Positions 17,333-34,228 of a stretch of DNA of 64,000 nt are shown one piece after another. This DNA comes from Candidatus Gastranaerophilales bacterium (GTDB taxonomy: Bacteria; Cyanobacteriota; Vampirovibrionia; Gastranaerophilales; Gastranaerophilaceae), in NCBI GenBank assembly GCA_944326565.1, contig CALVEL010000004.1, forward strand, positions 124,001-188,000, written 5' to 3'. The notes under the pieces were generated by a model. It searched no databases and was not told the DNA's origin. It worked only from the letters and a program-made list of their open reading frames with translations. How positions within the stretch are numbered: the first letter of the stretch is position 1; every line of letters starts with the position of its first letter. A program made the translations under genes and the position numbers.

Positions 17333-17909
17333 AGAAAATATTTTAAAGTGGCTTAGTGAAAATTTATCAGAAGAAAGATACAGTCATTCTTTAGGAACAG
17401 CAGAATGCGCAAAGGAATTGGCTGAAAAATTTGGTGAAAATGCTGATAAAGCATATTTAGCAGGACTTTTGCATGATTGTGCAAAATGCTTTTCAAATGA
17501 AAAACTAAAAGAAATAATCGATAGCAATTTACATGTCGAAGAATGTGAAATGCTTAATTATAAGACCTTACATGCCCCAGTAAGTGCATATATTGCAGAA
17601 AAAGATTTTGGTGTAACAGATAAAGAAATATTGTCAGCAATTCGATGGCATACACTTGGACGAATTGGGATGACTACTTTTGAAAAAATAATATTTTTAG
17701 CTGACAAAATCGAGCCAAATACAAGAGATTCAGAATATAGGAGTGAAATTTTGCAGATTTTATCTCAAGAAAATGGACTGAATTTAGCACTTTTAAGATG
17801 TTATAAAGAGACAATAAAAAGTTTAGCAAAAAGGGAGCTCAAAATTTGTTTTACAACAATAGATATTTATAACCATTTATTAGATGTAAAAAATGTATCA
17901 GATATTTAA
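17310..17909 (+). CDS. yqeK: YqeK-type HD-domain hydrolase
   Basis: A 199-aa HD protein of the YqeK family, which in other bacteria symmetrically cleaves diadenosine tetraphosphate. Metal ligands visible are His26 in RYSHSLG, His55-Asp56 in AGLLHDCAKC and a downstream LADKIEPNTR. It begins inside nadD (23-nt overlap), so translation is coupled. Length is family-typical. Confidence 0.9.
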   Translation: MNYTKISEENILKWLSENLSEERYSHSLGTAECAKELAEKFGENADKAYLAGLLHDCAKCFSNEKLKEIIDSNLHVEECEMLNYKTLHAPVSAYIAEKDFGVTDKEILSAIRWHTLGRIGMTTFEKIIFLADKIEPNTRDSEYRSEILQILSQENGLNLALLRCYKETIKSLAKRELKICFTTIDIYNHLLDVKNVSDI

Positions 17910-17966
17910 CGAAATATTATTTTATTGTCATGTTCATGTTAAAATCTGTCCAAAGAGGGTCTATTG

Positions 17967-20252
17967 ATGAAAGTATTGGAAATTAAGAATAATTTAGTAA
18001 AAATATCAAACGATTCAAATGATAAACTTATACTTGCAGGATTTGTTGTAATTGAGGATGAAATATCACCTTACGTAGCGCAAATTGTAAGTTTAAAAGC
18101 TGACAACGGACAAAGTTATGCTATTGCAAAATTAATGTTTACTTTTGATAATGATGGAATTGTTAAAAATTATGATGGTTCAATACCATCGTTAAATGCT
18201 AATGTGTCAAAACTTTCTCCAGCGGAACTCCTTGATATTTTACCAATTGATACTCCTCTAAAATTAGGTAATCTGGCACAGCAGGATTTTTTATTAAATG
18301 TAGATGTTTCAATATTGGAAGGAAAGCTTTTAATATGTTCTGATAGCGCCAAAAATACAGCTGTAATTTTGAATAACTTTTCAAAACAGCTGGAAAACCG
18401 AGCAGAAAGCTCAGTTATTTTTGACATTGACGGTAAAGTAGAGACCTCAAAGAAACTTTTATTTGGTCGAGATTTCAAACTCCCTTTAAATTTTGAGACA
18501 ATAAATTTTATTTATGCAAATGATTTAAATGATATAGATCCTACAAGTAAAGCTGTAATACAGGATATATTTTTAGAAGTACAAGAATATACAAGGACTG
18601 TTCCTGATAAATATATTCCCTTTGATACATTTATAGATGTTGTCTCCCAACAGTATAGAGAGTCAAATATTCCTGAATTAGCTTTGTTAAAAAATAAATT
18701 GTTAAAATATAAAGAAGAAAATGTATTTGCTCAATCAAAATATGAAATTACAGGATTGAGTGAATACATTAAAGATAACTACTCTGTAGTGCTTGATATT
18801 TCAAATGTAGATTCAAATTTACAACGAGAGATTATTTCTTACGTCTATGCAGTATTAGAAGATATGAATGCTTATATAAGTGTTTTTGTAAAAGTTAATG
18901 ACGAGAATAGTGATAAAAAACTTTTGAAATTACTTTTTAGCGAAAATAAAATATATACTAATATAATTTGTAATCATAATTACAAATATGTATATGAACT
19001 TAAAGAAAAAGCAAATAATTTGATTCTATTTACGCCAGAGACAACTCAGCATGATTTTGCGTCATATAATACTTTTTTGAATAAATTAAATCATGATGAA
19101 TTCGTAGTATATGGTAAGTCAACACAAATGATTCCCTTGATTGTTGAATTATCACCTATTGAAATAGTGAATACTGATGAAGTGAATGTAACATCTCAAG
19201 AACTAGTTGATGAAAATCCTCATTCTGAAGAAAGTTTACAGGAAGAAACAGTTTCAGAAGAAGAAACTGAAGAGCAAGAAATCGAAAATAGTAATAATGT
19301 TCCTGATTTTACAGATAATGAGGATACCTATACGGATTTGTCTGATGATATAGAACGAAAACCTCAAGAAGAAGATTACACAATGTTGTCAGAAGAACCT
19401 CAAATGGATTTGCAGGAAGATGATGAAGACGATTTTGATGCAGAACTTGCAAAATCAAATGATGTCGGTATAAATGATATAGAACAAGATAAGGTATTAG
19501 ATTCTTATATAGATGAAACACAACATGTTGAAGATATAGATGATGCATCTGAATCTATCTCAGAAATGGACGAAGAAATAATAATGCCTAATGGACAGGT
19601 ATTTCAAGAGGAAGATATAGAAAACATTGAAAATCCACAAGCTGATAAAATAGAATTGCCTGATCCTCAAATTGATGAGCGAATTTCAGAGGATATTGAC
19701 TCAATAAATTCAGAAGAGCATATAATAGTTGAAGATTCAATAGAGCAGACTCCATATGAAAATGATATTAGACCAGAACATGCAAAATTGATACCTGATG
19801 ATGAAGATTTGAATGATGAGCTAATTGAAAAAGTTGCACGTGATGTAGATAAAAATTTCATTTATTCCAAAATTGAACAGGATAATCTTGAAGACGAAGA
19901 TAATGCGGATACCTTGACTGAGGATGATTTAAATTTTATTGATGATATCAACCATGGTGAAACTGAATTGCTGGAGCCTGTAGTGGATGCCCCAGAAAAT
20001 TTTGATGATGACCAAGCCGTTTCTATTGAAGAAGATGATGAGCAAACTCCTGTAGTTCCTGTATATCCTGCTGATACTCCAAATGCTTCTCAAAGTTTTG
20101 AACAGGGAGATCATGTCTCTCATCCAAAATATGGCGAAGGTGTAATAGAAAAAATGATAAGATACGGTAACAAGACACTTTGTTCAATAAATTTCGTTAA
20201 TGTCGGCAGAAGACTTTTAGACCCCGCAATTTCTGAAATTTCAAAACTGTAG
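17967..20252 (+). CDS. Large acidic protein with PcrA/UvrD-tail-like Tudor domain
   Basis: A 761-aa protein with no overall match I recognise. ATG 17967 is chosen over the TTG one codon earlier because GAGGG lies seven bases upstream. Residues 1-400 are mixed alpha/beta and look like a degenerate P-loop ATPase (GKLLICSDSAKNTAVILNNF where a Walker A would be, YSVVLDISNVDS as a possible second strand); that is weak inference. Residues 400-700 are extremely acidic and probably disordered. The last ~45 residues (GDHVSHPKYGEGVIEKM, LDPAISEISKL) resemble the Tudor-like tail of UvrD/PcrA helicases, which in known cases contacts RNA polymerase. It lies between yqeK and def. Confidence 0.6.
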   Translation: MKVLEIKNNLVKISNDSNDKLILAGFVVIEDEISPYVAQIVSLKADNGQSYAIAKLMFTFDNDGIVKNYDGSIPSLNANVSKLSPAELLDILPIDTPLKLGNLAQQDFLLNVDVSILEGKLLICSDSAKNTAVILNNFSKQLENRAESSVIFDIDGKVETSKKLLFGRDFKLPLNFETINFIYANDLNDIDPTSKAVIQDIFLEVQEYTRTVPDKYIPFDTFIDVVSQQYRESNIPELALLKNKLLKYKEENVFAQSKYEITGLSEYIKDNYSVVLDISNVDSNLQREIISYVYAVLEDMNAYISVFVKVNDENSDKKLLKLLFSENKIYTNIICNHNYKYVYELKEKANNLILFTPETTQHDFASYNTFLNKLNHDEFVVYGKSTQMIPLIVELSPIEIVNTDEVNVTSQELVDENPHSEESLQEETVSEEETEEQEIENSNNVPDFTDNEDTYTDLSDDIERKPQEEDYTMLSEEPQMDLQEDDEDDFDAELAKSNDVGINDIEQDKVLDSYIDETQHVEDIDDASESISEMDEEIIMPNGQVFQEEDIENIENPQADKIELPDPQIDERISEDIDSINSEEHIIVEDSIEQTPYENDIRPEHAKLIPDDEDLNDELIEKVARDVDKNFIYSKIEQDNLEDEDNADTLTEDDLNFIDDINHGETELLEPVVDAPENFDDDQAVSIEEDDEQTPVVPVYPADTPNASQSFEQGDHVSHPKYGEGVIEKMIRYGNKTLCSINFVNVGRRLLDPAISEISKL

Positions 20253-20254
20253 CC

Positions 20255-20283
20255 TTGCTAATCCGTATTATTTTGGCTATACT
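20255..20283 (+). promoter_or_regulatory. Sigma-70 promoter of def-fmt-aroH
   Basis: TTGCTA (20255-20260), 17 bp, TATACT (20278-20283). The predicted start near 20290 gives a short leader holding AAGGAG before the ATG at 20305. Confidence 0.7.
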
Positions 20284-20304
20284 TTTATCTAAGGAGTGTT
20301 AAAT

Positions 20305-20868
20305 ATGGCAGTAAAAAAAGTTTTAAAGTATGGCGAGAAAACATTGCGTGAAAAGTCTAAAGAAGTGCATAAAGTATCTCGCAAAATAACAGATTTGGTA
20401 CAGGATTTATTAGATACAATGTATGCTAAAAACGGTGTAGGGCTTGCAGCTCCGCAAATCGGTATAAATTTACGTGTATTTGTAATAGACGTATCTGCAA
20501 ATGATGAGCCTTTAAAACCGCTTGTATTTATTAATCCTAAAATAATAAAAAAATCAGGGGCAATAGTATGCGAAGAGGGGTGCCTAAGCTTTCCTGAAGC
20601 ATATACTAAAGTAAAAAGATATAAAAATGTAATGGTGAAAGCTCTTGACATTCATGGTAAATCTTTTGTAATGGAAGCTAAAGATGGCTCTCTTTTAGCG
20701 CGTGCAATTCAACATGAAAACGATCATTTGGATGGAATTCTTTTTATAGACCATTGTGCAAGCAGATTTGAAACAGAAGCAGCGCTCAAAAAATTTAATT
20801 TGCCACCATTAGAACTTGATAAAATTATAGAAGAGCCTGAATTGGAGAAAGAATTGAATGACAATTAG
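20305..20868 (+). CDS. def: Peptide deformylase
   Basis: A 187-aa metalloprotease that removes the formyl group from nascent proteins. All three family motifs are intact: GVGLAAPQIG, EEGCLSFPEA with the metal-binding Cys, and QHENDHLDG with the two His ligands and catalytic Glu. The start is ATG 20305 (MAVKKVLKYG); AAGGAG is eight bases before it, and an upstream in-frame GTG overlaps that site. The 3' end overlaps fmt by 11 nt, the standard def-fmt coupling. Confidence 0.96.
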   Translation: MAVKKVLKYGEKTLREKSKEVHKVSRKITDLVQDLLDTMYAKNGVGLAAPQIGINLRVFVIDVSANDEPLKPLVFINPKIIKKSGAIVCEEGCLSFPEAYTKVKRYKNVMVKALDIHGKSFVMEAKDGSLLARAIQHENDHLDGILFIDHCASRFETEAALKKFNLPPLELDKIIEEPELEKELNDN

Positions 20869-21778
20869 AATTGTATATTTTGCTACTCCTGCAATAGCAC
20901 TTAAATCACTTGAATATCTGTATAACTCAGATGATATTGAAGTATTAGCTGTAGTGACTCAGCCTGATAAACCTGCAGGCAGAGGTAAAAAACTTACTCC
21001 TTCCCCTATAAAAGTATTTGCTGAAAATCATAATATTCAAGTTTTCCAGCCAAAATCAATCCGCAAAGAATTTGAAATTCAATCAGAATTAAAAAAATTG
21101 CAACCGGATTTTTTTGTGACATTTGCTTTCGGTCAAATTCTTTCACAAGAAGTGCTTGATATTCCTAAATACCATACTATAAATCTTCATGCTTCATTAT
21201 TACCTAAATATAGAGGTGCAAACCCTATACAAAGAGCTATTATAAATGGGGATAAAGAAACCGGTATATGTACAATGATTACCGAACTTGGACTAGATTG
21301 CGGGGATGTTTGTTTGAAAAAAGTTATTCCTATTCCTGATAATATGAACTGTGAAGAACTTTTTGAACAAATTGGTGATCTGTCACCAGAGCTTTTGGAA
21401 AACACATTGAAAGGTATTGTAAATAATTCAATAACACCAACTCCTCAGTGCTCAGATGGTGTCTGTATGGCAAATAAACTTACAAAAGAAGAAGCTCATA
21501 TAGATTGGAATAATTCAGCAGAATGTATTCATAACCTTGTAAGAGGAATCTATAAATATCCTAGTGCTTATTTTGTACATGATGGTAAAATAATAAAAGT
21601 TTTAGAAACTCGTGTAATTCAAGAAGATGTACATTCTGTAGGAGAAATAGTTAAATCTTCAAAAGATGGAGTGCAGATTTCATGCGGCAAAGGTTGCTTG
21701 CTTTTGGTAAAAGTAAAACCAGAAGGTAAATCCGAAATGTCCGCACGTGACTGGTATAATGGATTAAAAAACAGGTAA
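20858..21778 (+). CDS. fmt: Methionyl-tRNA formyltransferase
   Basis: A 306-aa enzyme that formylates initiator Met-tRNA using 10-formyltetrahydrofolate. The N-terminal RIVYFATPAIALKSL and VVTQPDKPAGRGKKL are diagnostic, and the active-site region reads NLHASLLPKYRGANPIQRAI. The C-terminal tRNA-binding domain is present. The stop overlaps the next ATG as TAATG. Confidence 0.96.
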   Translation: MTIRIVYFATPAIALKSLEYLYNSDDIEVLAVVTQPDKPAGRGKKLTPSPIKVFAENHNIQVFQPKSIRKEFEIQSELKKLQPDFFVTFAFGQILSQEVLDIPKYHTINLHASLLPKYRGANPIQRAIINGDKETGICTMITELGLDCGDVCLKKVIPIPDNMNCEELFEQIGDLSPELLENTLKGIVNNSITPTPQCSDGVCMANKLTKEEAHIDWNNSAECIHNLVRGIYKYPSAYFVHDGKIIKVLETRVIQEDVHSVGEIVKSSKDGVQISCGKGCLLLVKVKPEGKSEMSARDWYNGLKNR

Positions 21779-22134
21779 TGAAAATGATAACTAAAGGTAT
21801 AAGAGGTGCAATTACAGTAAATAGTAATACGGAAAAAGATTTACGTGATGCGACAATAGAGTTGTTGCAAGAAATAATTAAAGCAAATTCAATTGATATA
21901 AAAAATATTTCGCATGTGATATTTACTACAACTCCTGATTTGAATGCTGCTTTTCCGGCTAAATTTGCAAGATTAGAACTGAATTTTACAGATATTGCAA
22001 TGATGTGTTTTAATGAAATTGATGTACCTAATGCTCTTTCAATGTGTCTAAGAGTACTAATTGTTCTTAACTGTGATAAAAGTTTTAAACCAAAGTTTGT
22101 TTATTTAAAAGGTGCCAGTAGTCTAAGAAAATAA
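21778..22134 (+). CDS. aroH: Monofunctional AroH-type chorismate mutase
   Basis: A 118-aa protein matching the trimeric AroH class that converts chorismate to prephenate. TKGIRGAITV holds the first active-site Arg, FNEIDVPNALSMCLRVLIVL the conserved Glu and second Arg (the Glu78/Arg90 region of the Bacillus enzyme). It is last in the def-fmt-aroH operon. A second in-frame ATG at 21784 could be used instead. Confidence 0.87.
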   Translation: MKMITKGIRGAITVNSNTEKDLRDATIELLQEIIKANSIDIKNISHVIFTTTPDLNAAFPAKFARLELNFTDIAMMCFNEIDVPNALSMCLRVLIVLNCDKSFKPKFVYLKGASSLRK

Positions 22135-22169
22135 ATATATATATAATTATTACAAAATGTAACAATAAC

Positions 22170-22196
22170 TAAAGAAAATCCCATAAACATCCGTAA
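22170..22196 (+). promoter_or_regulatory. Sigma-28 (FliA/SigD)-like promoter A
   Basis: TAAA (22170-22173, in TAAAG), 17 bp, CCGTAA (22191-22196). This resembles the flagellar-sigma consensus TAAA-N~16-CCGATAA. The predicted start leaves a leader of about 38 nt before the cassette gene at 22242. No sigma-70 promoter is seen here. Confidence 0.6.
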
Positions 22197-22241
22197 TAGA
22201 TATTGTAAAGCTATAAGCCTTATGAAAGGAACAGAAATACA

Positions 22242-22604
22242 ATGGGAATGGCGGCATCACAAGCACGATTATTGACGATAACTTCGCGATTGAATCATGT
22301 AGAGCTTGAAGCACAGAATGTATCAAACGCGAAGATACGTTTGTCAGATAAAACACAAGCAGCAAGTGATGAGTATATAGCAGCATTAAATAAGACAGAA
22401 TATTTGTATAATTATTATGATGGAAGTGGTGAAAAGATAAGCATGTCATTGACCGGCTCTGCATTGACGACCTATGGAGAATTAAAAAATCAGTATGGTC
22501 TAATAAATTCAGCAGGTCAGATTCTAGTAAGCGAGACAGATGCAAAGAATTATGAGACATCAAATACATTGGAAGAATTTTTGGAGAAATACGGTGTATT
22601 AGGT
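22242..22604 (+). repeat. 5' constant block of cassette pair (copy 1)
   Basis: The first ~363 nt match 26778-27140 with scattered, mostly synonymous differences (for example GTTTGTCAG versus GATTGTCCG). Direct orientation, 4,536 bp apart. Confidence 0.9.
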
Positions 22605-23864
22605 GACTTGGGAACCGGTGATAAAATAGAAGTAGCAAATCCAGAATATGATATAGCAATGGATGATTATAACAAAGAGTATGATGAATGGCTTACTAAA
22701 AAGCCAGATCCAAATGATGAAATATACATAATTCCTGGACAAGCTACCGGAAGTTCAATGTATGAAAAATTCCTTGATACAACTGGAATATGTTTTGAAT
22801 ATGCAGCCAAAAGCAAGCTTTCATGCTATATGCATGTTTTAGTTGATTTAATAGGCTCAGGAGAACATGAAACCAGTTCAGGTGAAAAATTTACAGTATA
22901 TTCAGATTGCGGATCATGGGATTGGAATAAAACAAGTCATACAAGAACCCAAGAAATGGATGAATTAACAGAAGAAATCCACAATGTATATTGTTCAGGT
23001 GATGTAATACCTGGTGGAAGCGAGACAGTAGAAACATCATATGGTACAGTAACAGTGGGCGGACCAGTTTCAGATACTAATATGACAGTTTACCAACGTG
23101 CAGTAGATTTATTATGGGAAGTTCATAATGAATACGATAGTGAGAATAACCCTTCAACAGGAGGTCCTGCAACTGAAGAAAGTTTACAGAAATTTTTCTA
23201 CTTTATAGAGCATGATTTAGCACAATTTAAAGAGCCTGAAGATGAATTTGACAAAGAAGCCTACAATGATGATTTGGCAGCATGGGAAGCCGCAGAGCCC
23301 GAAAAGCCAGATGTACCTCAATTTATCGAAAAAGAAGTAAGAAAGATAACAGATTTAGATAAAGCGCAATGGTATGTAAATTTGTGGCATAGAATGAACG
23401 GAACAAGTGATTATCGAGCAGGCGTAGGCGGCGATGAGAACTTTATAGCCGGGGATGGCTGGGCAAGCAAATCAACAACCGAGCAGAGTTATGCAGTATT
23501 AAAAGATGGCGAAATGAATAGTTCAGAATATTTAAAATTTGCAATAGAAAACGGTATAATAACATTAGAACAAGTCCAGTTTGTAAATCCATCAAAAAGC
23601 GAAGAAGGCATAGAGAATATAGAATGGACGTCAATAGTATTCGGCTCAGCGCAGGATATAACCGAGCAGAAAGACCAAGAAGCGATAACCAAAGCGGAAG
23701 TAAAATACGAGCAGGCTCAACGCGAAATCCAAGCAAAAGACAAAGAATATGAGACACAATTAAAGAAATTGGATACAGAACATAACGCATTACAGACAGA
23801 ATACGATAGTATAAAAAGTGTAATAGAAAAGAATGTAGAGCGAGGTTTCAAGGCCTTTTCTTAA
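22242..23864 (+). CDS. Cassette protein 1: constant ends, variable centre
   Basis: A 540-aa protein of a family I cannot name. Residues 1-121 (MGMAASQARLLTITSRLNHV...) are helical and identical to cassette protein 2 apart from K102N. Residues ~122-380 are unique, acidic, and contain a few Cys. Residues 406-540 again match cassette 2 almost perfectly and end in a coiled coil (VKYEQAQREIQ, EKNVERGFKAFS). Helical constant ends around a variable domain is the layout of flagellin- or hook-like self-assembling proteins, but sequence similarity to them is too weak to claim. No signal peptide. AAAGGA precedes the ATG by 11 nt. Promoter is sigma-28-like; a terminator follows. Confidence 0.75.
   Translation: MGMAASQARLLTITSRLNHVELEAQNVSNAKIRLSDKTQAASDEYIAALNKTEYLYNYYDGSGEKISMSLTGSALTTYGELKNQYGLINSAGQILVSETDAKNYETSNTLEEFLEKYGVLGDLGTGDKIEVANPEYDIAMDDYNKEYDEWLTKKPDPNDEIYIIPGQATGSSMYEKFLDTTGICFEYAAKSKLSCYMHVLVDLIGSGEHETSSGEKFTVYSDCGSWDWNKTSHTRTQEMDELTEEIHNVYCSGDVIPGGSETVETSYGTVTVGGPVSDTNMTVYQRAVDLLWEVHNEYDSENNPSTGGPATEESLQKFFYFIEHDLAQFKEPEDEFDKEAYNDDLAAWEAAEPEKPDVPQFIEKEVRKITDLDKAQWYVNLWHRMNGTSDYRAGVGGDENFIAGDGWASKSTTEQSYAVLKDGEMNSSEYLKFAIENGIITLEQVQFVNPSKSEEGIENIEWTSIVFGSAQDITEQKDQEAITKAEVKYEQAQREIQAKDKEYETQLKKLDTEHNALQTEYDSIKSVIEKNVERGFKAFS
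23457..23864 (+). repeat. 3' constant block of cassette pair (copy 1)
   Basis: 408 nt colinear with 28161-28568. From 23487 to 23860 (374 nt) I find no difference from 28191-28564, although the 5' block has diverged at synonymous sites. Confidence 0.9.
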
Positions 23865-23886
23865 ATAAGAAGAAGAGATAAATTAT

Positions 23887-23918
23887 AAAACTCCCGGCTT
23901 GTATAAGTCGGGAGTTTT
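23887..23918 (+). terminator. Terminator of cassette gene 1
   Basis: AAAACTCCCG (23887-23896) pairs with CGGGAGTTTT (23909-23918), extended inward by GCTT/AAGT with a GTAT loop. The downstream T-run is the stem's own TTTT. Confidence 0.75.
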
Positions 23919-23938
23919 GTATAAGTGCGATTTTGTTA

Positions 23939-24040
23939 CCTGCTGGTCTCGCAGGTGGGTGAGCGCCTTGACAAATCCGTTTCCCGCTGGCGATTTTTAA
24001 TCGGCGGGTATACTGCAATGTCATTGAGAGTCAACTCTCC
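23939..24040. repeat. Compact three-hairpin intergenic element
   Basis: A ~100-bp stretch noticeably richer in GC than its surroundings with three successive hairpins: CCTGC/GCAGG (23939-23955); CCCGC plus CGAT against ATCG plus GCGGG with a 3-nt bulge (23983-24008); GAGAG/CTCTC (24026-24039). The composition break suggests a mobile-type intergenic repeat or structured RNA. Only one copy is in this window, so the repeat label is inference. Confidence 0.4.
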
Positions 24041-24121
24041 CTTTTATAGTAAATGTAGGAACAAAATTGAACACTCATACATTATTTATATTATATCATA
24101 TTTTTTATTTAATTCAATATA

Positions 24122-26239
24122 CTACCAGCGCATAGCAAGAGTGTCTTTTACTTGTTTTTCAGCTGCATCACAATTTTTTAGAGCAGTTTCTGCTTTTGAA
24201 TAATCTTCAGTCGGGTTCCCTGCTATTTTGCACTCAGGTGATGGAATATATCTTGGTTTTTCAGGTTTTTGTGGCAATGTTTCTGAGATTTGTGCTGTGG
24301 TATTATTTTGTAAATTCCCAATATTTTTATTATTGTCTGCTTGTTGTGGGGTATTTGATTTTATTGCAGTTGATGCAACTTGATGTGACTGACTATTTGT
24401 ATAAGTATTTTGTTTGTTTATATTGTTTTGTTTTTGTATATATTGATTAATGAGATTAGTCTGAGATTGTGGAATTGTAGCTTTTGCATTGTTCTGAGCC
24501 TGAGCAGCTTTTAATAAGGCTTCTTGAAGGGCTTTTTGCTCCTCAATAGTCGGTGTTTGAGAGTTTTTCTCTTCTTTATCTTCATCGAGCACTGATTTTG
24601 TTGGTCTGCCAAATATAGCATGCGCACCTTTTGTTGTAAGTTTTGCTAAAAATGGCGAGATTATTGCTAGGGGTATAGCTATTCTTAACGGTACACCAGC
24701 TAAGTTACGGAAGAAGTTGCCTGATTTTCTGAATATATTCATATTCCATTTAGCGTTTGATCTTCTTGCTAAAATTGTTTCATTACCTATATTGATTAGC
24801 TTACCGATTTTTTTGAACAGTTTTGTAATAGGATTTTTAACATTAGCTTTGAGCATATTTTTCAATTTGAGCTTTTCTTGTTTATATAATGCTTTGTCAG
24901 CTAAGTTTCCATTTCTAACTTTATCATTAAACTCTTTTAACGCTTTTCTGTAATCATCAACTTGATCAGTTGTCATACCTGCATATTTTAAACCGCCTAC
25001 TTTATGCATTGCAACAATACCTAGAGGCATAGCCATAAAGTATGTAAAGTCGTTTACAAATCTTTCAATTAAAGTTTTTCCTTTTTCTCCTTTTGGTGCC
25101 TTGAAAGTATTTATTAACATATCAGCAAAAATTCCGGCCTGCATTGCAACGGCAATTTTACCTCCCGCAAATCTGTTTGTGCATCCTTCCATAAACCATG
25201 AAAGTGCTTTAGGTAAAGCACGACCAAGTGCTGTTGAATTACCTTTACCTAGTGCAGCTTTGTATTTATTTAAGTATTCTTTGAATGATATTTGTCTTCC
25301 AAATAAATGTGAGCTTATTTTACCAAGAGTTCCGCCTTTTCTCCATATTGAAACCTTTATATCGCCGTTTCTCGTTGCATTCTCTAATGCTTGCATTACT
25401 TTTTCTGGGTGTGCGGTGATATCTGATTTTACAAGGTTATATTCTGCTAAGTTTTTAAAGCCCATTTTTCTTATTTTTTTAGCGTGTGCAATTTTTTCAA
25501 GACCAGAAATACCTCTAGTTTTTGATACATGTTCTATAAAATCATTCTTATAGCCCAAAAGTTCCAGTTCTTTTTTCTGTAAGAGAAGAGCTTTTTCATT
25601 AAATGATTTTCCTTTAAGACTATTTCTGAATTTATCAATTTCACTTTGAGCTAGTCCGTATTGTTCAAGTTTTTGAGGATTTACATCTTTTCCTCTTAGC
25701 CAAGAAAATCTGTTTGAATTACTAGATATCGGTTTTAAATACTCATCAAATACCTGTTGCATATCCATAGCAAGGAAGCCATGTACACCTTTGCCTGGAG
25801 TCTTTGCAAACCCCCATTCCGGTTGTGTCGAGTGATTGGCAAGTGCGTATGCAATATCATTTTTTTCACTCATCCAATGCCCAATGTCTTTACCTTTTCC
25901 GAGTATTTTATTAAAAAATTTCCCAACAGCAGTATTATTCCAGCTGTTAGTTATTCTATCTCCAAAAGCTCCCAATTTGCCAAAGATACTTTTTTCATAG
26001 TCTGTTGCACATTTTTTGTTAAAAACATCCATACCTTGTGATATTCCATACCAAATAGCAGCACCAGTTCCTGCATATAAAAGAGGATTGGTTTCTTCCC
26101 CTGAGGATGCCTTTACACGGTTTGCAAGATATGAATTGTCAACATTTTCTTTTAGTTTCTCTCTGTCAATATTGACAGGCAATACTTGTCCTGCCTGCAT
26201 TGGAATATTATTATATTGTTGATTTAAGCTATTAACCAT
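24122..26239 (-). CDS. Large lineage-type protein of unknown function
   Basis: A 705-aa protein. ATG 26239 (MVNSLNQQYNNIPM) is chosen because TAGGAA is just upstream; another ATG lies 12 codons earlier. Residues 1-500 are basic and mostly helical with possible membrane-spanning or membrane-associated stretches (LLYAGTGAAIWYGISQG, FVNDFTYFMAMPLGIVAM, LRIAIPLAIISPFLAKL). The last ~150 residues are Gln/Asn-rich and disordered-looking (NNINKQNTYTNSQS), ending in KDTLAMRW. It resembles the unknowns at 30.9, 50.1 and 51.7 kb in style (basic helices, Gly/Ala membrane patches, N/Q tail) but not in alignable sequence. It lies between the two cassette genes, opposite strand. Confidence 0.65.
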   Translation of the reverse strand: MVNSLNQQYNNIPMQAGQVLPVNIDREKLKENVDNSYLANRVKASSGEETNPLLYAGTGAAIWYGISQGMDVFNKKCATDYEKSIFGKLGAFGDRITNSWNNTAVGKFFNKILGKGKDIGHWMSEKNDIAYALANHSTQPEWGFAKTPGKGVHGFLAMDMQQVFDEYLKPISSNSNRFSWLRGKDVNPQKLEQYGLAQSEIDKFRNSLKGKSFNEKALLLQKKELELLGYKNDFIEHVSKTRGISGLEKIAHAKKIRKMGFKNLAEYNLVKSDITAHPEKVMQALENATRNGDIKVSIWRKGGTLGKISSHLFGRQISFKEYLNKYKAALGKGNSTALGRALPKALSWFMEGCTNRFAGGKIAVAMQAGIFADMLINTFKAPKGEKGKTLIERFVNDFTYFMAMPLGIVAMHKVGGLKYAGMTTDQVDDYRKALKEFNDKVRNGNLADKALYKQEKLKLKNMLKANVKNPITKLFKKIGKLINIGNETILARRSNAKWNMNIFRKSGNFFRNLAGVPLRIAIPLAIISPFLAKLTTKGAHAIFGRPTKSVLDEDKEEKNSQTPTIEEQKALQEALLKAAQAQNNAKATIPQSQTNLINQYIQKQNNINKQNTYTNSQSHQVASTAIKSNTPQQADNNKNIGNLQNNTTAQISETLPQKPEKPRYIPSPECKIAGNPTEDYSKAETALKNCDAAEKQVKDTLAMRW

Positions 26240-26372
26240 TTTCCTACTATTTCCCCTATATTTTAATAAAAACATTTTTTATAGAATAATTGCTTTTTAC
26301 ACCACTTTAATAATGTTTTTGTAAAGTTATGTAACAACTTTTGAAAAAAGTGAAATATATAAATTGTTATAT

Positions 26373-26390
26373 ACTTTATATATACATAAG
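26373..26390 (+). promoter_or_regulatory. Shared 18-nt upstream word, copy 1
   Basis: ACTTTATATATACATAAG lies 28 nt before the 55-aa gene. The same 18 bases occur on the minus strand at 51529-51546 before another unknown gene, and the first 12 bases recur at 45312. It probably contains a -10 element. Confidence 0.5.
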
Positions 26391-26418
26391 AAGAAATTAA
26401 AAAGAGAGGCTTGAAAAT

Positions 26419-26586
26419 ATGGCAGTTGCAAATTTGAAAAAAATTGATGACAAATTGAAAGATATGTATCAAGACAAAATAACAGCAGTTGCGCCTTCTG
26501 CACCTTATGAAGATAGATCAGAAGTATTGCTTGCTCAAATGAATTTCATAGCGATTGCAAATAAAAGAGCTCTTAATTTAAAATAA
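26419..26586 (+). CDS. 55-aa protein of unknown function
   Basis: Starts MAVANLKKIDDKLKDMYQD and ends AIANKRALNLK. A GAGAGG ribosome site is upstream and a strong terminator follows, so I consider it expressed. It is a charged, helical protein with no signal peptide or cysteine. Not recognised. It sits in the island just before cassette gene 2. Confidence 0.65.
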   Translation: MAVANLKKIDDKLKDMYQDKITAVAPSAPYEDRSEVLLAQMNFIAIANKRALNLK

Positions 26587-26642
26587 AAAGTTTTTCACAT
26601 AAATATTTAACTCCAATTAATTTTTCCCCTACAAATTTTGTA

Positions 26643-26673
26643 CCTGATTTTTTCAAAAAATCAGGTTTTTTTT
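26643..26673 (+). terminator. Terminator of the 55-aa gene
   Basis: An 11-bp stem CCTGATTTTTT/AAAAAATCAGG with a single-C centre (effective loop within the A/T run), followed by eight Ts. Confidence 0.8.
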
Positions 26674-26706
26674 ATTTTATAAATTGTAAATTTTTGTAAA
26701 AATAGT

Positions 26707-26734
26707 TAAAGAAGCTTTATTAAAAATCCGATAA
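26707..26734 (+). promoter_or_regulatory. Sigma-28 (FliA/SigD)-like promoter B
   Basis: TAAA (26707-26710, in TAAAG), 17 bp, CCGATAA (26728-26734), an exact match to the -10 core of the flagellar-sigma consensus. The leader to the ATG at 26778 would be about 37 nt, as at site A. Confidence 0.68.
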
Positions 26735-26777
26735 CTAAATAGAAAAGGATAAATCTAACGAAAGGAATACCATAACA

Positions 26778-27140
26778 ATGGGAATGGCGGCATCACAAGC
26801 ACGATTATTGACAATAACCTCGCGATTGAATCATGTAGAGCTTGAAGCACAAAATGTATCAAACGCGAAGATACGATTGTCCGATAAAACCCAAGCAGCA
26901 AGTGATGAGTATATAGCAGCGTTAAATAAGACAGAATATTTGTATAATTATTATGACGGAAGCGGCGAAAAGATAAGCATGTCATTGACAGGATCTGCAT
27001 TGACGACCTATGGAGAATTAAAAAATCAGTATGGTCTAATAAATTCAGCAGGACAGATCTTAGTAAGTGAGACAGATGCCAATAATTATGAGACATCAAA
27101 TACACTAGAAGAATTTTTGGAAAAATACGGTGTATTAGGT
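26778..27140 (+). repeat. 5' constant block of cassette pair (copy 2)
   Basis: Counterpart of 22242-22604; protein identical over 121 residues except one. Confidence 0.9.
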
Positions 27141-28568
27141 GAAATAGGTACTGGTGAATATAAACTTGTTGAAAATCCTGCGTATCAGGCAGATGTTGAT
27201 AGATATAAAAATGAAATGGCTGATTATGAAGAAGCATATAAGATTTATGAAGAAGAAATCTTAAATTGGGAGGCTCAAGAACCAGATTCGTCTAATCCTA
27301 TATATATGATTCCTGATCCAAATTGGGTTCCACCGACTTCTGGTGAAGGTGGAGAAGAAGAAGTTGAAACTTGGTCTTTATATGAAGCATTTACAGAGGG
27401 AACCTCTGGGGGTTGTTTTTCCTGTTCTTCTAATCCCAGTTCAAGTGAATATAATGTTGTAAGACATTTTCAACATACTCTTGCCCATTTGCTTACAACA
27501 AGTACATCATATTGGGAAGGTGCACTTTGGTGGAGTGAACCAGATGGAGGTATTAATGGTACATCTGGTGATGGAAAGATAATGATGCAAATAGCAAATG
27601 CTATTAAAGGAAAGTATTGTTGTGGTGAAACTGGTTGTTCCGAAGGTTCACATGAACATAATTTTTATGGTACAGATGTGAATTTCGACTGCGGAAATGA
27701 AAGTTGTGATGGTTCACAATTAATTACCGATAAGATTATGAATTTAATGCAAGATATTGAAGTATATGCTAATAATGATTATTCAAAAGTTGGTGATGAT
27801 AATGATCCAGTATGGATAAATATAAAACAGCGTTATTACCATTTAATAGAACATGATTTAAAGAGTGTTATCGGAGAAATAGAAATTCCAAAAGAGCCTG
27901 TCGAAGAACCTGAAGCTCCTTTGATATTTGACCAGACTGGATATGATAGAGATATGGAAGAATGGAGGCTAGAGGGTGAAAAAATAGTACCTCCGACTCT
28001 TCCTGATCCTGTGACTGAATCTCAATACATTGAAGAAGAAATTCGTGCTATTGATAATTTAGATAAAGCGCAATGGTATGTAAACTTGTGGCACAGAATG
28101 AATGGTACAAGCAATTTTAAAGCTGGATTTGGGGACAGTAATGAATATATTGCAGGTAATGGCTGGGCAAGCAAATCAACAACGGACCAAAGTTATGCAG
28201 TATTAAAAGATGGCGAAATGAATAGTTCAGAATATTTAAAATTTGCAATAGAAAACGGTATAATAACATTAGAACAAGTCCAGTTTGTAAATCCATCAAA
28301 AAGCGAAGAAGGCATAGAGAATATAGAATGGACGTCAATAGTATTCGGCTCAGCGCAGGATATAACCGAGCAGAAAGACCAAGAAGCGATAACCAAAGCG
28401 GAAGTAAAATACGAGCAGGCTCAACGCGAAATCCAAGCAAAAGACAAAGAATATGAGACACAATTAAAGAAATTGGATACAGAACATAACGCATTACAGA
28501 CAGAATACGATAGTATAAAAAGTGTAATAGAAAAGAATGTAGAGCGAGGTTTCAAGGCCTTTTCATAA
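26778..28568 (+). CDS. Cassette protein 2: constant ends, variable Cys-rich centre
   Basis: A 596-aa paralogue of the protein at 22242. Ends are constant as described there. The central ~280 residues are unique and include a cysteine cluster (GGCFSCSSN, GKYCCGETGCSEGSHEHN, DCGNESCDG) that could bind metal or form disulfides. Acidic Pro/Glu stretches flank it. The closing coiled coil and EKNVERGFKAFS tail are identical to copy 1. No signal peptide is visible. Sigma-28-like promoter B is upstream and a terminator lies 25 nt past the stop. Confidence 0.75.
   Translation: MGMAASQARLLTITSRLNHVELEAQNVSNAKIRLSDKTQAASDEYIAALNKTEYLYNYYDGSGEKISMSLTGSALTTYGELKNQYGLINSAGQILVSETDANNYETSNTLEEFLEKYGVLGEIGTGEYKLVENPAYQADVDRYKNEMADYEEAYKIYEEEILNWEAQEPDSSNPIYMIPDPNWVPPTSGEGGEEEVETWSLYEAFTEGTSGGCFSCSSNPSSSEYNVVRHFQHTLAHLLTTSTSYWEGALWWSEPDGGINGTSGDGKIMMQIANAIKGKYCCGETGCSEGSHEHNFYGTDVNFDCGNESCDGSQLITDKIMNLMQDIEVYANNDYSKVGDDNDPVWINIKQRYYHLIEHDLKSVIGEIEIPKEPVEEPEAPLIFDQTGYDRDMEEWRLEGEKIVPPTLPDPVTESQYIEEEIRAIDNLDKAQWYVNLWHRMNGTSNFKAGFGDSNEYIAGNGWASKSTTDQSYAVLKDGEMNSSEYLKFAIENGIITLEQVQFVNPSKSEEGIENIEWTSIVFGSAQDITEQKDQEAITKAEVKYEQAQREIQAKDKEYETQLKKLDTEHNALQTEYDSIKSVIEKNVERGFKAFS
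28161..28568 (+). repeat. 3' constant block of cassette pair (copy 2)
   Basis: Counterpart of 23457-23864; 28191-28564 appears base-for-base identical to 23487-23860. Confidence 0.9.
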
Positions 28569-28592
28569 TTGAAATTAAGGATAGTTGTTTTA

Positions 28593-28619
28593 GCACTCAT
28601 TTAATTTGAGTGCTTTTTG
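28593..28619 (+). terminator. Terminator of cassette gene 2
   Basis: 8-bp stem AGCACTCA/TGAGTGCT, 7-nt loop, then TTTTT. Unrelated in sequence to the terminator of copy 1, so the duplication ends at the coding region. Confidence 0.8.
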
Positions 28620-28629
28620 TATTAACTTG

Positions 28630-28658
28630 TTGCCCGAATATTTAGTGTATGATATTAT
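28630..28658 (+). promoter_or_regulatory. Sigma-70 promoter of cpaE operon
   Basis: TTGCCC (28630-28635), 17 bp, TATTAT (28653-28658). The predicted start is about 12 nt before the ATG used. Confidence 0.6.
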
Positions 28659-28676
28659 TTTCAGTAGAGGATGACT

Positions 28677-29876
28677 ATGAGTGAAAAAATTTCTACTATC
28701 ATTTTGTCTAATTCTGAGCGGACTTATAAGATAATTGAAAATTATTTGAATGAGTTTGATCAGTTTGAAAATGTTTCAAATATAAATGATTTATCTGAAA
28801 TTTTTAATTTTTTATCAAGTCTTTCAAAATCACTTTTAATTATTGATGTATCTGATAATTTTGGTAAATATATAAATTTTATTTCAAGTTTAGCAAAGGC
28901 AGCACCAAATTGTAAAATTGTTGCACTATCTGATGCGCCTTCTGTTGATGTAATAGTAAAGCTTATGCGGGCTGGGGCTAAAGATTTTTTGGCATTGCCA
29001 GTTATTAAAACTGAGTTTATGGAAATATTAGAAAAAATTTCAAACCAGTTTTTGGGTTGTCATATTGAAAATAAATGTCGTGTGATCACAGTTTTTTCGA
29101 ACAAAGGCGGTATCGGTAAAACTTCTGTTGCTTCTAATTTGGCATTAGAGCTTGCAAAAATTACAAAAGAAAATGTTGCATTGGTTGATTTGAATTTTCA
29201 GTTAGGGGATATCACTTCTTTTCTTGATTTGCAGCCTTCTTTTAATATTTCTTATATGCTTCAAAATTTAGATAAGATAAATTCTGATTTTATATTAAAT
29301 ACTGTAGAAAAATATAAAGATACAAGTTTGTATGTAATAGCTGATCCACCTTATTTCAAACAAGCTGAAAATATTCCAAAAGCTCAAATTGCTCTATTAT
29401 TTGAAAAATTAAAAGAAACTTTTTCATATGTAGTCGTAGATACTGATTCAACTTTTGATAGTAAAACAGTTACCGCTTTAGATAATTCTGATTTGATTTT
29501 TCTAATTACGATTGTTAATTTACCAGCATTAAGAAATTGTCAAAGAATATTGGATTTATTCGATAAATTAGGCTATGACAAAGAAAAAACTCAGATACTA
29601 ATTAATCGTTATATGGAAAATGATGAGATAAAAGTTGAAGATGTGGAAAATGTTTTAGGTAAAAGTGTATACTGGAAAATTCCGAATAATTATTTTACTA
29701 TGATGTCTGCGATTAATAAAGGTGTATCAGTAAGTGAGATAAATCCTGATTCAAATGTAGCTCTAAGTTATAAAGAATTGGCAATGTCAGTATCTGATAT
29801 GGTATATAGAAATAAATTGATAAAAAAATATTCGGAATTTCAGACGGATATGGTAGATAATTTTTTCAGAGGATAA
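28677..29876 (+). CDS. cpaE: CpaE/TadZ-type pilus localisation ATPase
   Basis: A 399-aa protein with an N-terminal receiver-like domain (~1-120, LLIIDVSDN, KLMRAGAKDFLALPV) and a MinD/ParA-type ATPase domain with deviant Walker A NKGGIGKTS, switch VALVDLNFQLGDITSFLDL and VVVDTDSTFDS. CpaE/TadZ positions Tad/type IVc pilus machinery at the membrane. ATG 28677 fits AGAGG with six bases; the ATG at 28671 would touch it. The next gene starts directly after its stop. No other Tad gene (prepilin peptidase, secretin, TadB/C) is in the window. Confidence 0.82.
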   Translation: MSEKISTIILSNSERTYKIIENYLNEFDQFENVSNINDLSEIFNFLSSLSKSLLIIDVSDNFGKYINFISSLAKAAPNCKIVALSDAPSVDVIVKLMRAGAKDFLALPVIKTEFMEILEKISNQFLGCHIENKCRVITVFSNKGGIGKTSVASNLALELAKITKENVALVDLNFQLGDITSFLDLQPSFNISYMLQNLDKINSDFILNTVEKYKDTSLYVIADPPYFKQAENIPKAQIALLFEKLKETFSYVVVDTDSTFDSKTVTALDNSDLIFLITIVNLPALRNCQRILDLFDKLGYDKEKTQILINRYMENDEIKVEDVENVLGKSVYWKIPNNYFTMMSAINKGVSVSEINPDSNVALSYKELAMSVSDMVYRNKLIKKYSEFQTDMVDNFFRG

Positions 29877-31118
29877 ATGGCTTTAAAAGACAGATTGAAA
29901 AATGTGAATATTTCAGCTAAACCAAGAATTGTTGAAGAAACCTCTTTTACAGAGTTTATAGCGGATGCTTTGTCTCAAAAAGTTGCAGCTATTCCTGTTT
30001 GGTATGATTATGATTATTCTAAACAGTTTGAGTTGATTTTAAATTTTTTAGATAATAAATTGAATAGTGAATTTGAGGTTTTGTCTCTTTCTGAGTTAGA
30101 AAAAAAGGCAATAGCTGAGGCTTTTTTGAAAAATAATAAAGGTTTTGGCATACTAGATAGAATTTTAGCTAATGATAAAGTGCTTTCAGTAACTGTAAAT
30201 CCACTCGGTTCTGTCTATATTGAAACTTTAAATGGATATGAAAAAACAGATATTGTACTAACTAATAAGCAATTTAGTGATATTTCAAAAAGATTTAGCC
30301 AATCAAGTGCTGTTGTAAAGACAAGACAGGATAATCTTTTAGTTACTATAATAAAACCTCCAGTTGCTGATAATGTTTTGATAATTAAAAAAATTAATGA
30401 TGTATTGGATGATTTGTCTGATTTAACTGAATGTGGAATTTTAACTTCAGAGTTAGAAGCATTTATAAGGTATTTAATAAATTCGAAAAAAAACATTATT
30501 CTCTCAGGCAAAGATTCAGATTGTATAAACTATTTTATACAAGTTTTATTAAATTCAATTTCACCGCTAAATCGAGTTTCTGTAATTGAAGATAATTATT
30601 TGTATAATACAAATCTTGATAATGTTTCTGTATTTTCTGCCGATACTTTAAATAATTGTGAGTATGAAAGTTTATTAAAAACTATATTTAGTATTTCACC
30701 GGATTATATTATTGCTCAAATCGAAGATTATAATAAATTTCTTTCTTACTATATGCATACTGATAATTTAAATAACGGTTTGATTACTCAGTTGAGGGCG
30801 CTATCAATTAGTGATGCCTCAAATAAATTAGTTAATATGGCCACCATTGCAATGAAGTCAACCGAAAAGTTAGCAAAGCTTAAATTATCCCAAAGTTATG
30901 ATTACATAATTTATGTTGATAGACAGCATGATAATTCATATATTTTATCGTCAATAATGGAAGTTACTTCTTCAAAGACGTCTTCTCTTGTTTTGAATGA
31001 AGTTGTGAAATTTGTTGAAGGAATGTATGTTCTGGATCTTCCTGAGGATATTCAAAATATAAATCTTTTGAATAATCTCGAGAATGATTGTTCTTCTTTT
31101 CGCTCACGTTTAAAATAG
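29877..31118 (+). CDS. CpaF/TadA-like secretion ATPase lacking its Walker A
   Basis: A 413-aa protein with the layout of CpaF/TadA hexameric ATPases: an N-terminal helical region, the 'ILANDKVLSVTVNP' linker and a core whose strands fit (KKNIILSG, RVSVIED, ISPDYIIAQIED). The nucleotide site is gone: GGTGSGKTT is replaced by SGKDSDCIN at residues 210-218, the arginine-rich and His-box motifs (LRMRPDRIIVGE, STLHAN) are absent. It is thus a pseudo-ATPase by sequence, possibly a partner of a real CpaF elsewhere. It starts immediately after cpaE. Its last 155 nt overlap a convergent gene. Confidence 0.65.
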   Translation: MALKDRLKNVNISAKPRIVEETSFTEFIADALSQKVAAIPVWYDYDYSKQFELILNFLDNKLNSEFEVLSLSELEKKAIAEAFLKNNKGFGILDRILANDKVLSVTVNPLGSVYIETLNGYEKTDIVLTNKQFSDISKRFSQSSAVVKTRQDNLLVTIIKPPVADNVLIIKKINDVLDDLSDLTECGILTSELEAFIRYLINSKKNIILSGKDSDCINYFIQVLLNSISPLNRVSVIEDNYLYNTNLDNVSVFSADTLNNCEYESLLKTIFSISPDYIIAQIEDYNKFLSYYMHTDNLNNGLITQLRALSISDASNKLVNMATIAMKSTEKLAKLKLSQSYDYIIYVDRQHDNSYILSSIMEVTSSKTSSLVLNEVVKFVEGMYVLDLPEDIQNINLLNNLENDCSSFRSRLK

Positions 31119-32136
31119 ATTTTGATTGAATTATTTTTTTACGCGTTTTATCAACTTTTTCTACATGTTGTCTTAATAAGTTACTTTCGTTGAATTTTGA
31201 AATAATAATATCCATACCTGGTGTGATGTATTTGGGCATTAAAATTTTATTTACAAGGTAGCTTATCGGTTGTGTAAATAAAAGACATGATATAACCCCT
31301 CCAATTGTTTTTATAATTTTATTTTTTACAATAAGATAGTTCTGATATTCTTTTAATGCAGTTTTAAGAGCATTTTCTGTATAATCTTTTCCGTAAATTT
31401 TTTGCATTATCGGTAAAACTTCGTGGTATTTTTTAAATATTCGTTTAGGAATGGATTTATCAATATTATTGTTTTGTAGCTTTTCTTTTAATTCAATTAT
31501 TTTATCAGCATTTTTTTCAGCAAAAGAATAAAGTTTTTTATCATCTGCATCCACCATTGAAAAATAGCCTGTGAAATATCTGTAAAATTTTCTAAATATA
31601 TTATCCGTTTCTTTTGTATTAGCAAGTGATTTTACACGATTCTCCAGTGAAGTTTTCATAAATTCTTTAAAATTTTCTTTATTGCTAAGATGTTCATGCA
31701 GACTTTGTTCTATAACACTTTTTGAATGTCTGTAAATGCCGTCTTTTGCGTTAATTGATAATTTATCGCTTATCAATTTACCTATTGGTGATGTGAGTTT
31801 TTGTCCAAAGATAGTAGCTGCTGATGGTAAAATAAAGAATGTTAAAGCTTGTCTTATTACTTCTTTCATTCCTCTTTTACCACTAGGTGAAAATTTATTT
31901 TTGTCATTTTTGTATTTATCGTAAATATCAGCACCTAAATACATAAAAGCAGGAACCCAAAGTGCAAAAGTTAAATTAGGTGCAATTTCATTAACTGTCG
32001 CTCCAACTTCACTTGAATACATAAGAACTCTAACCCCCCAACTGTTTAATGGATCTTTATACTTCTTTTCTTCTCGTTTGGGTGTACTCTCCGTTGCTTT
32101 TGTATTTTTTATTTTGGTTTCTACTTTAATAGACAT
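30964..32136 (-). CDS. Basic helical protein of unknown function
   Basis: A 390-aa basic protein, start MSIKVETKIKNTKATES with AAAGAGA upstream. Hydrophobic patches at LTFALWVPAFMYLGADI, ALTFFILPSAATIFG and TIGGVISCLLFTQPISYLV suggest membrane association. Between them are charged helices (ENADKIIELKEKLQNN). Not recognised. Its final ~50 codons lie antisense to the end of the CpaF-like gene; both reading frames look intact. Confidence 0.62.
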   Translation of the reverse strand: MSIKVETKIKNTKATESTPKREEKKYKDPLNSWGVRVLMYSSEVGATVNEIAPNLTFALWVPAFMYLGADIYDKYKNDKNKFSPSGKRGMKEVIRQALTFFILPSAATIFGQKLTSPIGKLISDKLSINAKDGIYRHSKSVIEQSLHEHLSNKENFKEFMKTSLENRVKSLANTKETDNIFRKFYRYFTGYFSMVDADDKKLYSFAEKNADKIIELKEKLQNNNIDKSIPKRIFKKYHEVLPIMQKIYGKDYTENALKTALKEYQNYLIVKNKIIKTIGGVISCLLFTQPISYLVNKILMPKYITPGMDIIISKFNESNLLRQHVEKVDKTRKKIIQSKSILNVSEKKNNHSRDYSKDLYFEYPQEDPEHTFLQQISQLHSKQEKTSLKK

Positions 32137-32233
32137 TGATTTCTCTTTTATTCTAGCTCAGTATATTATATAATGCGCATAAATATTATTTTTTGCTATG
32201 TAAATATATTATATTTGATATAAAATTTTTTGT

Positions 32234-34228
32234 ATGGAAAACAGAAAGTTTAAAATAAATTCAAAATATTCACCTGCAGGAGATCAGCCAAAGGCAATAG
32301 AGGCTTTAACAGAAGGTATTCTCAAAGGGGATGATTCTCAAACTCTTCTTGGTATTACAGGTTCAGGCAAAACGTTTACTATAGCAAACGTAATCGAAAG
32401 GGTGCAAAAACCTACTTTAATAATTGCTCATAATAAGACTCTGGCTGCTCAATTATATAATGAATTTAAAGAACTTTTTCCAGAAAATGCTGTTGAATAT
32501 TTTATTAGTTATTATGACTACTATCAACCAGAGGCTTATATACCAAGGACTGATACTTATATCGAAAAATCAGCTTCCATAAATGATGAGATAGACAGAT
32601 TACGGCACAATTCTACAAGAAGTCTTTATGAGCGTAATGATGTAATAATTGTTGCCTCAGTTAGTTGTATTTATGGTCTAGGACTCCCTGAAAATTATTT
32701 TAGAGGTTCTGTCGAACTAAAAGTGGGAGATGCAGTTGAAAGAGATGATCTACTAAGACATTTGGTATCTGTTCAATACAAGCGAAATGATCTGGTGCTT
32801 GAGCGTTCGACATTTAGAGCCAGGGGTGATATCGTTGAAATTATGCCTTCTTATGAAAAGATTGTCACGCGGATATACTTTTTCGGGGATGAAATTGAAA
32901 AAATAGTAAGAATTGATAATGTTTCAGGAGAAATATTGGAAGTGCCAGAAAGTGTTGTGATTTATCCTGCGGTACATTATCTTTCTTATGATGAAAACAC
33001 AGAAGAAACATTAGATTTGATTAGACAAGAATTATCCGTCAGACTAAAGGAGCTAGAAGCAGAAAATAAGCTTGTCGAAGCACAAAGACTCTCTCAAAGA
33101 GTTAAATATGATATAGAAATGATAAAAGAAATGGGGTATTGCTCAGGTATTGAAAATTATTCAAGAATTATAGAGCGCCGCCCTCCAGGTAGTCCGCCGG
33201 CTACTTTGCTTGATTATTTTCAGGGAGATTTTTTGACAGTAATTGACGAATCTCATGTTACATTACCACAATTAAAAGGAATGTCTCATGGGGATGCAGC
33301 CAGAAAAGATACTTTGATAGAATATGGTTTTAGACTCCCTTGCGCAAAAGATAATAGACCGTTGACAAATGAAGAATTCTTTTCAAGGGTACATCAAAAA
33401 ATATATATTTCAGCAACTCCGGGTGAATTTGAAAGAAATACCTCTCAGAACTTAGTAGAGCAAATTATTAGACCTACAGGGCTTGTTGATCCTAAAATTT
33501 CAGTAAGACCTATTGATACTCAGATTAATGATTTAAAAAATGAGATTAAAAAACGCACTGAAAAAGATGAGCGAGTCCTTATTACAACGCTTACAAAGCG
33601 TATGGCTGAGGATTTGACAGATTTCTTTATACAAGAAGGTATAAGAGTCAGATACTTGCATTCAGAAATTCAATCTTTAGAACGAGTTGAGATATTAAGG
33701 GATTTAAGATTAGGTGAATTTGATGTATTAATCGGTGTAAACTTATTAAGAGAAGGATTAGATATCCCGGAAGTCTCTCTTGTTGCAATAATGGATGCTG
33801 ATAAAGAGGGGTTTTTGAGAAGTGAGACAAGTTTAATACAGACAATTGGGAGAGCTGCAAGGAATGCATGCGGAGAAGTTATTATGTATGCTGATAAAAT
33901 TACTGACAGCATGAAAAAGGCTATAGATGAGACAAATCGCAGACGAGAAATTCAAATTGCTCACAATAAAAAATATGGTATTATTCCTCAAACTATTAAA
34001 AAGCCTATTGAAAACAATCTTCTTTCCTTAGTTGCGAGTTATCGTGATTTAGAAGATATAGTTGCTGAGGAAATGGTTGATCTCGGTATAGATAAAAAAG
34101 ACTTGCCGAAATTAATCGACAAGCTTGAAAAAGATATGCATAAAGCTGCTAAAATACTTGATTTTGAAAGAGCAGCCGAAATTCGAGATAAGCTTAAAAA
34201 GTTGAGGGAGATGGCGGATTCCCGTTAG
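32234..34228 (+). CDS. uvrB: Excinuclease ABC subunit B
   Basis: A 664-aa nucleotide-excision-repair helicase. Walker A GITGSGKT is at 40-47, the DNA-wedging beta-hairpin [12 protein letters not shown] around 93-104, the DEAD-type box in VIDESHV, motif [11 protein letters not shown], and a C-terminal UvrC-binding coiled coil ([17 protein letters not shown]). Length is standard. There is no ribosome site; TATAAA lies ten bases before the ATG, so the leader may be only a few nucleotides. The 3' end overlaps the convergent membrane gene by 35 nt. Confidence 0.96.

Follow-up and report, generated by a model that had tools for sequence, protein, structure and literature searches.

A flagellin-like pattern of constant ends and exchanged middles in a family of candidate flagellar-type export substrates from Gastranaerophilales

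Flagellins (FliC) combine conserved ends with a diverse centre, recombination breakpoints lie in the conserved ends, and the hypervariable region is associated with H-antigen switching (PMC7018530). Gut Melainabacteria carry partial flagellar gene sets that have been described as a non-functional or reducing flagellum (PMC3787301, PMC4040986), and FliP/Q/R have been reported for relatives (PMC3787301). Here we discuss two genes, A1 and A2, that belong to a multicopy protein family and lie in the window, i.e., the whole 64,000-nucleotide stretch of DNA that was analysed, which is part of contig C4 (242 kb) of a 1.87-Mb genome from the Gastranaerophilales, which are non-photosynthetic cyanobacteria of the gut (own genome, G000; other genomes carry similar handles). 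On balance, the sequence data favor the view that A1 and A2 encode late, sigma-28-controlled and probably exported substrates of a flagellar-type type III secretion system (T3SS) without flagellin, diversified in the manner of flagellins.

The family shares with flagellin the conserved ends that hold the recombination breakpoints, the diverse centre, little variation within one centre type, a sigma-28-type promoter, several copies per genome and, in the structure models of A1 and A2, helical N and C termini. It differs from flagellin in lacking both a Flagellin_N match (neither PF00669 nor any other Pfam entry matched A1 or A2) and a significant fold match, in middles that contain Cys and Trp, and in its often larger size; moreover, flagellated relatives have it alongside true flagellin, and it is retained where flagellin is missing. 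The arrangement appears to work like flagellin variation in proteins that the flagellin family test does not recognize.

A1 (540 amino acids, aa; middle type m1; 22242..23864) and A2 (596 aa; middle type m2; 26778..28568) are both on the plus strand, as are all their parts named below. The constant 5′ blocks (residues 1-121; 22242..22604 in A1, 26778..27140 in A2) differ at 21 of 363 nt, with 20 synonymous changes and the replacement K102N, as a preliminary description of this DNA had anticipated in reporting many synonymous differences and one residue change. The variable middles (22605..23352 and 27141..28056) are followed by partly diverged transitions (23353..23486 and 28057..28190), which lead into a tract that is identical in the two genes (23487..23860 and 28191..28564). 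The identity of these 3′ blocks, also part of the preliminary description, holds for 374 of 374 nt, with the nearest mismatches at 23486 upstream and at 23861, in the last codon, downstream; the final 126 residues are the same in both proteins. Between A1 and A2, the synonymous divergence (dS, NG86) amounts to 0.31 for the N block and to 0.014 for the C block, where the last codon alone accounts for it. If the C block had diverged at the N-block synonymous rate, it should show approximately 20 synonymous differences, and the pattern is repeated in other genomes; hence the 3′ identity is not due to chance. Outside the coding ends the flanks are unrelated, except for a short upstream stretch with the promoter and ribosome-binding region. 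The middles had been called unrelated, which was wrong: they align at 29.6% identity (E = 2e-30, blastp) and are therefore diverged homologues. Middles related to m1 are found in G006, G007 and G002, and on B-type ends (see below) in G012 and G003, while those related to m2 occur in G002 (80%), G007 (65%) and G005 (52%). The m2 middle of A2 also contains a Cys/His-rich stretch (27618-27707; CCGETGC...HEH...CGNESC) that resembles a metal-binding or disulfide module.

Between the direct repeats lies a gene of unknown function outside the family (24122..26275, minus strand). It encodes 717 aa from the first ATG; the 705 aa given earlier corresponds to a later ATG. Deletion of this gene through the repeats had been raised as a possibility and was not seen, the gene being kept in eight relatives.

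Comparisons with relatives, most of which are metagenome draft assemblies, were between species, and within the genus two end types were compared, A (that of the window pair) and B. C ends that are exact over at least 374 nt were found within four genomes, i.e., G000, G002, G007 (three copies) and G012, whereas the longest exact C-end run between genomes is 38 nt. In such pairs the N ends are less alike (dS 0.3-1.0 in G000, G007 and G012), which suggests that the 3′ end is where conversion has been strongest or most recent. The nearest neighbour resides in the same genome for 19 of 29 C ends and 20 of 38 N ends but for only 5 of 37 middles (Fisher, ends vs middles: 2e-5 for C ends and 5e-4 for N ends). 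A given middle type can be borne by more than one end type and can occupy more than one position. G009_C3 has A ends with a B-like middle, G004_C2 (B ends) and G011_C1_46758 (A ends) have one middle in common, and the closest middle to that of G002_C17 (A ends) is in G012_C6 (B ends). Likewise, the locus between the 717-aa gene and a cpaE-like gene holds m2 in G000 and m3 in G007, and m1 stands beside the 717-aa gene in G006; the locus beside the nadD-chorismate mutase block has m1 in G000, m2 in G007 and G002, and other middles in G009, G004 and G011. Uniform divergence along the blocks and fixed middles were both looked for between species and not found. Collectively, the 3′ gene conversion and cassette-like centres of the preliminary description are supported, and it is very probable that the family evolves by gene conversion together with cassette exchange.

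Middles of the same type are under purifying selection, with a ratio of nonsynonymous to synonymous divergence (dN/dS) of approximately 0.08-0.16, and positive selection was looked for in same-type comparisons and not seen. This suggests that the variety stems from exchange of old cassettes rather than from fast change. In silent-cassette antigenic variation, as in pilE/pilS and vlsE, homologous recombination likewise trades variable parts among copies with conserved flanks. A1 and A2 differ from these systems in that both are complete genes with a promoter and start codon, and no silent cassettes were found; a system with one expression locus and promoterless copies was considered and rejected, since 9 of the 10 own copies have a start codon and a promoter-like motif. 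A DNA inversion switch was ruled out as well, given that 18000-34000 contains no inverted repeats of at least 25 nt. On a larger scale, a comparison with loci L046 and L051 shows that G007 and G002 carry the nadD-to-chorismate-mutase block (16739-22134 in the window) in the opposite orientation with respect to its neighbours, and one breakpoint adjoins a family gene. On the other side of the pair, adjoining A2, 28671-31118 encodes a TadZ/CpaE-like ATPase followed by a very weakly T2SSE-like protein, possibly a diverged Tad-type pair.

The search of relatives for further cassettes with the same ends, proposed earlier, was productive: family matches are present in 57 of 59 relatives, and the own genome has ten members at eight places, although copy numbers vary with the search used. 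Homologues in public records are titled mostly as Candidatus Gastranaerophilales or Melainabacteria metagenome-assembled genomes. No match to A1 or A2 was found in Pfam, NCBIfam, PDB sequences or phage proteins, and they appear to represent a previously unrecognised protein family. Its members, often of approximately 330-1000 aa, have in common 75-120 N-terminal and 70-135 C-terminal residues (approximate values), while the length of the centre varies greatly. The models of A1 and A2 (mean predicted local distance difference test scores, pLDDT, of 83 and 75) both have a helix at residues 2-49, followed up to approximately residue 130 by small strands and helices, then a differing middle and a C-terminal helix of approximately 60 residues, in line with the suggestion that the ends be modelled; in A1 this helix and the preceding strands map to the identical tract.

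A protein of 108-110 aa consists of both family ends without a middle (hhalign probability 96.8%, E = 2.6e-10, 106 columns), and its copy in G019 is matched by both end profiles. It is part of a conserved block, present in G000, G001, G019, G020 and G034, that is located 4-5 kb upstream of fliE-fliF-X-fliH-flhA2 and encodes a family member and 273-aa, 93-aa, 108-aa ends-only and 214-aa proteins. In the own genome the latter four, the 273-aa one being Gly/Ala-rich, lie at L044:4886-7216 (C1:144885-147215) and have no convincing Pfam match. As a counterpart of the two helical ends that is encoded near an export cluster, the ends-only protein resembles T3SS needle subunits, but it has no sequence match to them.

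The sigma-28 consensus is TAAAGTTT-n11-GCCGATAA (PMC2859248). The motif upstream of the family genes, TAAAG(TTT/AAA)-N12-GCCG(A/T)(T/A)A, equals this consensus with a spacer that is one base longer. In the window it is represented by TAAAGAAAATCCCATAAACATCCGTAAT (22170..22197, plus strand), 72 nt upstream of the A1 start codon, and by TAAAGAAGCTTTATTAAAAATCCGATAA (26707..26734, plus strand), 71 nt upstream of that of A2. TAAAG-N15/16-YCGW occurs 60-81 nt upstream of 9 of the 10 own copies, with approximately 0.005 expected per region (binomial 3e-20). Among 110 non-redundant family upstream regions there are 40 sites with 11 or 12 of 12 positions, all between -50 and -84, compared with 7 in 624 control genes; perfect 12/12 sites number 21 in the family regions vs none in the controls. 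An unbiased count of dyads also places TAAA-N16-GCCG at the top (41 of 110, vs a maximum of 15 in shuffles and of 22, from A/T-rich dyads, in control genes). The flagellin genes of flagellated relatives have the motif within 200 nt in 7 of 21 cases, against an expectation of approximately 0.2 based on the window background; in a first check, seven flagellins from other families yielded no convincing sigma-28-like site. Within the own genome the strict motif occurs nine times, the reversed pattern twice. Two further genes, L238:3-1469 (489 aa) and L245:1567-2634 (356 aa), start 31-39 nt past a strict sigma-28-like site and are candidate extra members of the regulon. A FliA/WhiG-like sigma factor is encoded beside flhB in the own genome (77 bits, its best family, yet below the cut-off of that family). 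These data support sigma-28-type control of the family well, and the FliA-like factor would be the protein that activates its promoters, a step from motif to FliA that we infer.

What, then, would export these proteins? The own genome encodes FlhA (724 bits), FlhB, FliE, FliF, FliH, FlgB, FlgC, two FlgF/G-like proteins, an FlgE/F/G-family protein with weak FliK- and FliJ-like neighbours, and a protein with a FliM/N domain. A PF00669 search of the whole own genome was empty, and no flagellin was found in the other same-genus genomes. In relatives, FlhA falls into two classes, one of approximately 860-890 bits where flagellin is present, and one of approximately 670-730 bits in nearly all genomes, including those without flagellin; many flagellated genomes hold both. 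In G045 the two are adjacent, and are 38% and 76% identical to FlhA of the own genome. Several outgroup genomes have flgG-flgG-flgB-flgC-(SLT)-fliE-fliF-X-fliH-flhA2 as one cluster. The own flagellar-type genes come from a second flagellar-type system present in nearly all relatives. They resemble the partial Melainabacteria sets in content (flgG, flgG, flgC, fliF, fliH, flhA, fliP/Q/R and flhB, with no filament, cap or L/P rings). They differ in that the flagellin-less genomes keep this second FlhA lineage, which is distinct from the one found together with flagellin, within a conserved cluster, and encode constant-end proteins that form a sigma-28-type set. Of the 289 genomes in a class sample, 225 contained the family and 247 FHIPEP; among the genomes listed, none has the family without FHIPEP, those negative for FHIPEP are also negative for the family, and the FlhA-like match is only partial in a few family-positive genomes.

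Two other FlhA-related proteins should be mentioned. One, of approximately 500 aa (L104:4793-6295; G000 C6:132793-134295), consists of the FlhA cytosolic domain (PF00771 positions 307-653) without the membrane part and has a weakly DUF4177-like N terminus; equivalents exist in nearly all relatives, conserved across the order. The other, a third FlhA-like protein of 575-600 aa, is found in several same-genus genomes (G005:C14:230893-231963, G007:C8:86748-87836, G009:C1:73933-75021 and others), and its gene in G005 lies approximately 2 kb from a family gene.

Flagellum-type export genes without flagellin, together with a flagellin-type promoter, suggest that a flagellum-like machine probably uses the family proteins as variable cargo or as surface parts, and export by the flagellar-type system is probable. 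The preliminary description had proposed a diversifying surface or secreted structure; the sigma-28-like promoters and the export genes fit this proposal, but positive selection was not seen and secretion is something we infer. Several observations weigh against the proposed role. Foldseek gave no significant match for either model; model 1 has an E. coli flagellin as its best hit (E = 0.2, probability 0.11), which is absent for model 2. Profile-profile comparison of the family ends with flagellin, FlgB, FlgC, FlgG and FliE gave no homology, in a test that is underpowered because it also missed flagellin vs rod. The Cys and Trp in the middles are unusual for axial proteins, and the fli-linked paralogue C1:143277 has no sigma-28-like promoter. 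Phylogeny confounds the co-occurrence of the family with FHIPEP. Most relatives are metagenome assemblies. Families f9, f14 and f15 hold the family, and the FlhA regions fetched there contain the flagellar-type FlhA; a link to the second system specifically is therefore not proven.

The same features can be read in other ways. The same export system could secrete the family proteins as effectors or as adhesin-like cargo, the ends acting as export or chaperone-binding signals and the middles as the delivered active domains. Middles that are folded in the models, bear Cys and Trp and are under purifying selection within type would suit such cargo, as would some ten copies per genome at scattered loci with both termini conserved. 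However, the 108-aa ends-only homologue has no middle to deliver, the middles have no domain match, and it is the C-terminal part that is most homogenised, unlike the N-terminal export signals of known effectors. We regard this alternative as unlikely; a structural role in an appendage seems more likely than delivery of effectors.

Less probable still is that A1 and A2 belong to ordinary duplicated coiled-coil proteins of the cytoplasm or envelope that undergo routine gene conversion and have no functional tie to flagellar export. Gene conversion is common between close direct repeats, most neighbours in the window are housekeeping genes, and secretion of the family is a prediction. Duplication of this kind does not account for the sigma-28-like promoters of nine of the ten own copies and their family-wide excess, for the same motif upstream of flagellin genes in relatives, or for middles traded between non-adjacent loci and end types. 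That the 3′ identity is an artefact, a repeat collapsed in a draft assembly, is very improbable. The relatives are drafts, and contig ends cut 23 of 51 family copies in the other genomes vs approximately 13% expected. However, such breaks at family copies indicate that the repeats are real, and differing copies would give separate assembly paths. Moreover, a single 242-kb contig contains both A1 and A2, flanked by unique sequence, the tract stops at a real difference at 23861, and exact tracts occur at separate loci in other genomes.

If A1 and A2 are exported substrates diversified like flagellins, the two long helices, one per end, would form the constant part necessary for export and assembly, and the middle would be an exposed, exchangeable domain. 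Recombination between copies keeps the ends alike through gene conversion, strongest at the 3′ end, and allows middles to pass from one copy, end type or locus to another, much as when flagellin serotypes are switched. The FliA-like factor would activate the genes, and the proteins would be exported through the flagellar-type apparatus and incorporated into an appendage; variation against phage or host may be the selective cause.

More broadly, we tentatively propose, as a possibility somewhat short of an even chance, that the Gastranaerophilales keep an order-wide second flagellum-related machine that builds or fires proteins of this non-flagellin family. The "decaying flagellum" might in that case be a distinct working system whose exposed parts vary by swaps of middles among paralogues. 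The "incomplete flagellum" of gut Melainabacteria, so far read as genome reduction, would become a second system, for secretion or for an appendage, that can be put to the test in bacteria common in animal and human guts, with a promoter-linked, polymorphic family of candidate substrates. The family would also be a new example of flagellin-like diversification, seen here in proteins without detectable flagellin homology.

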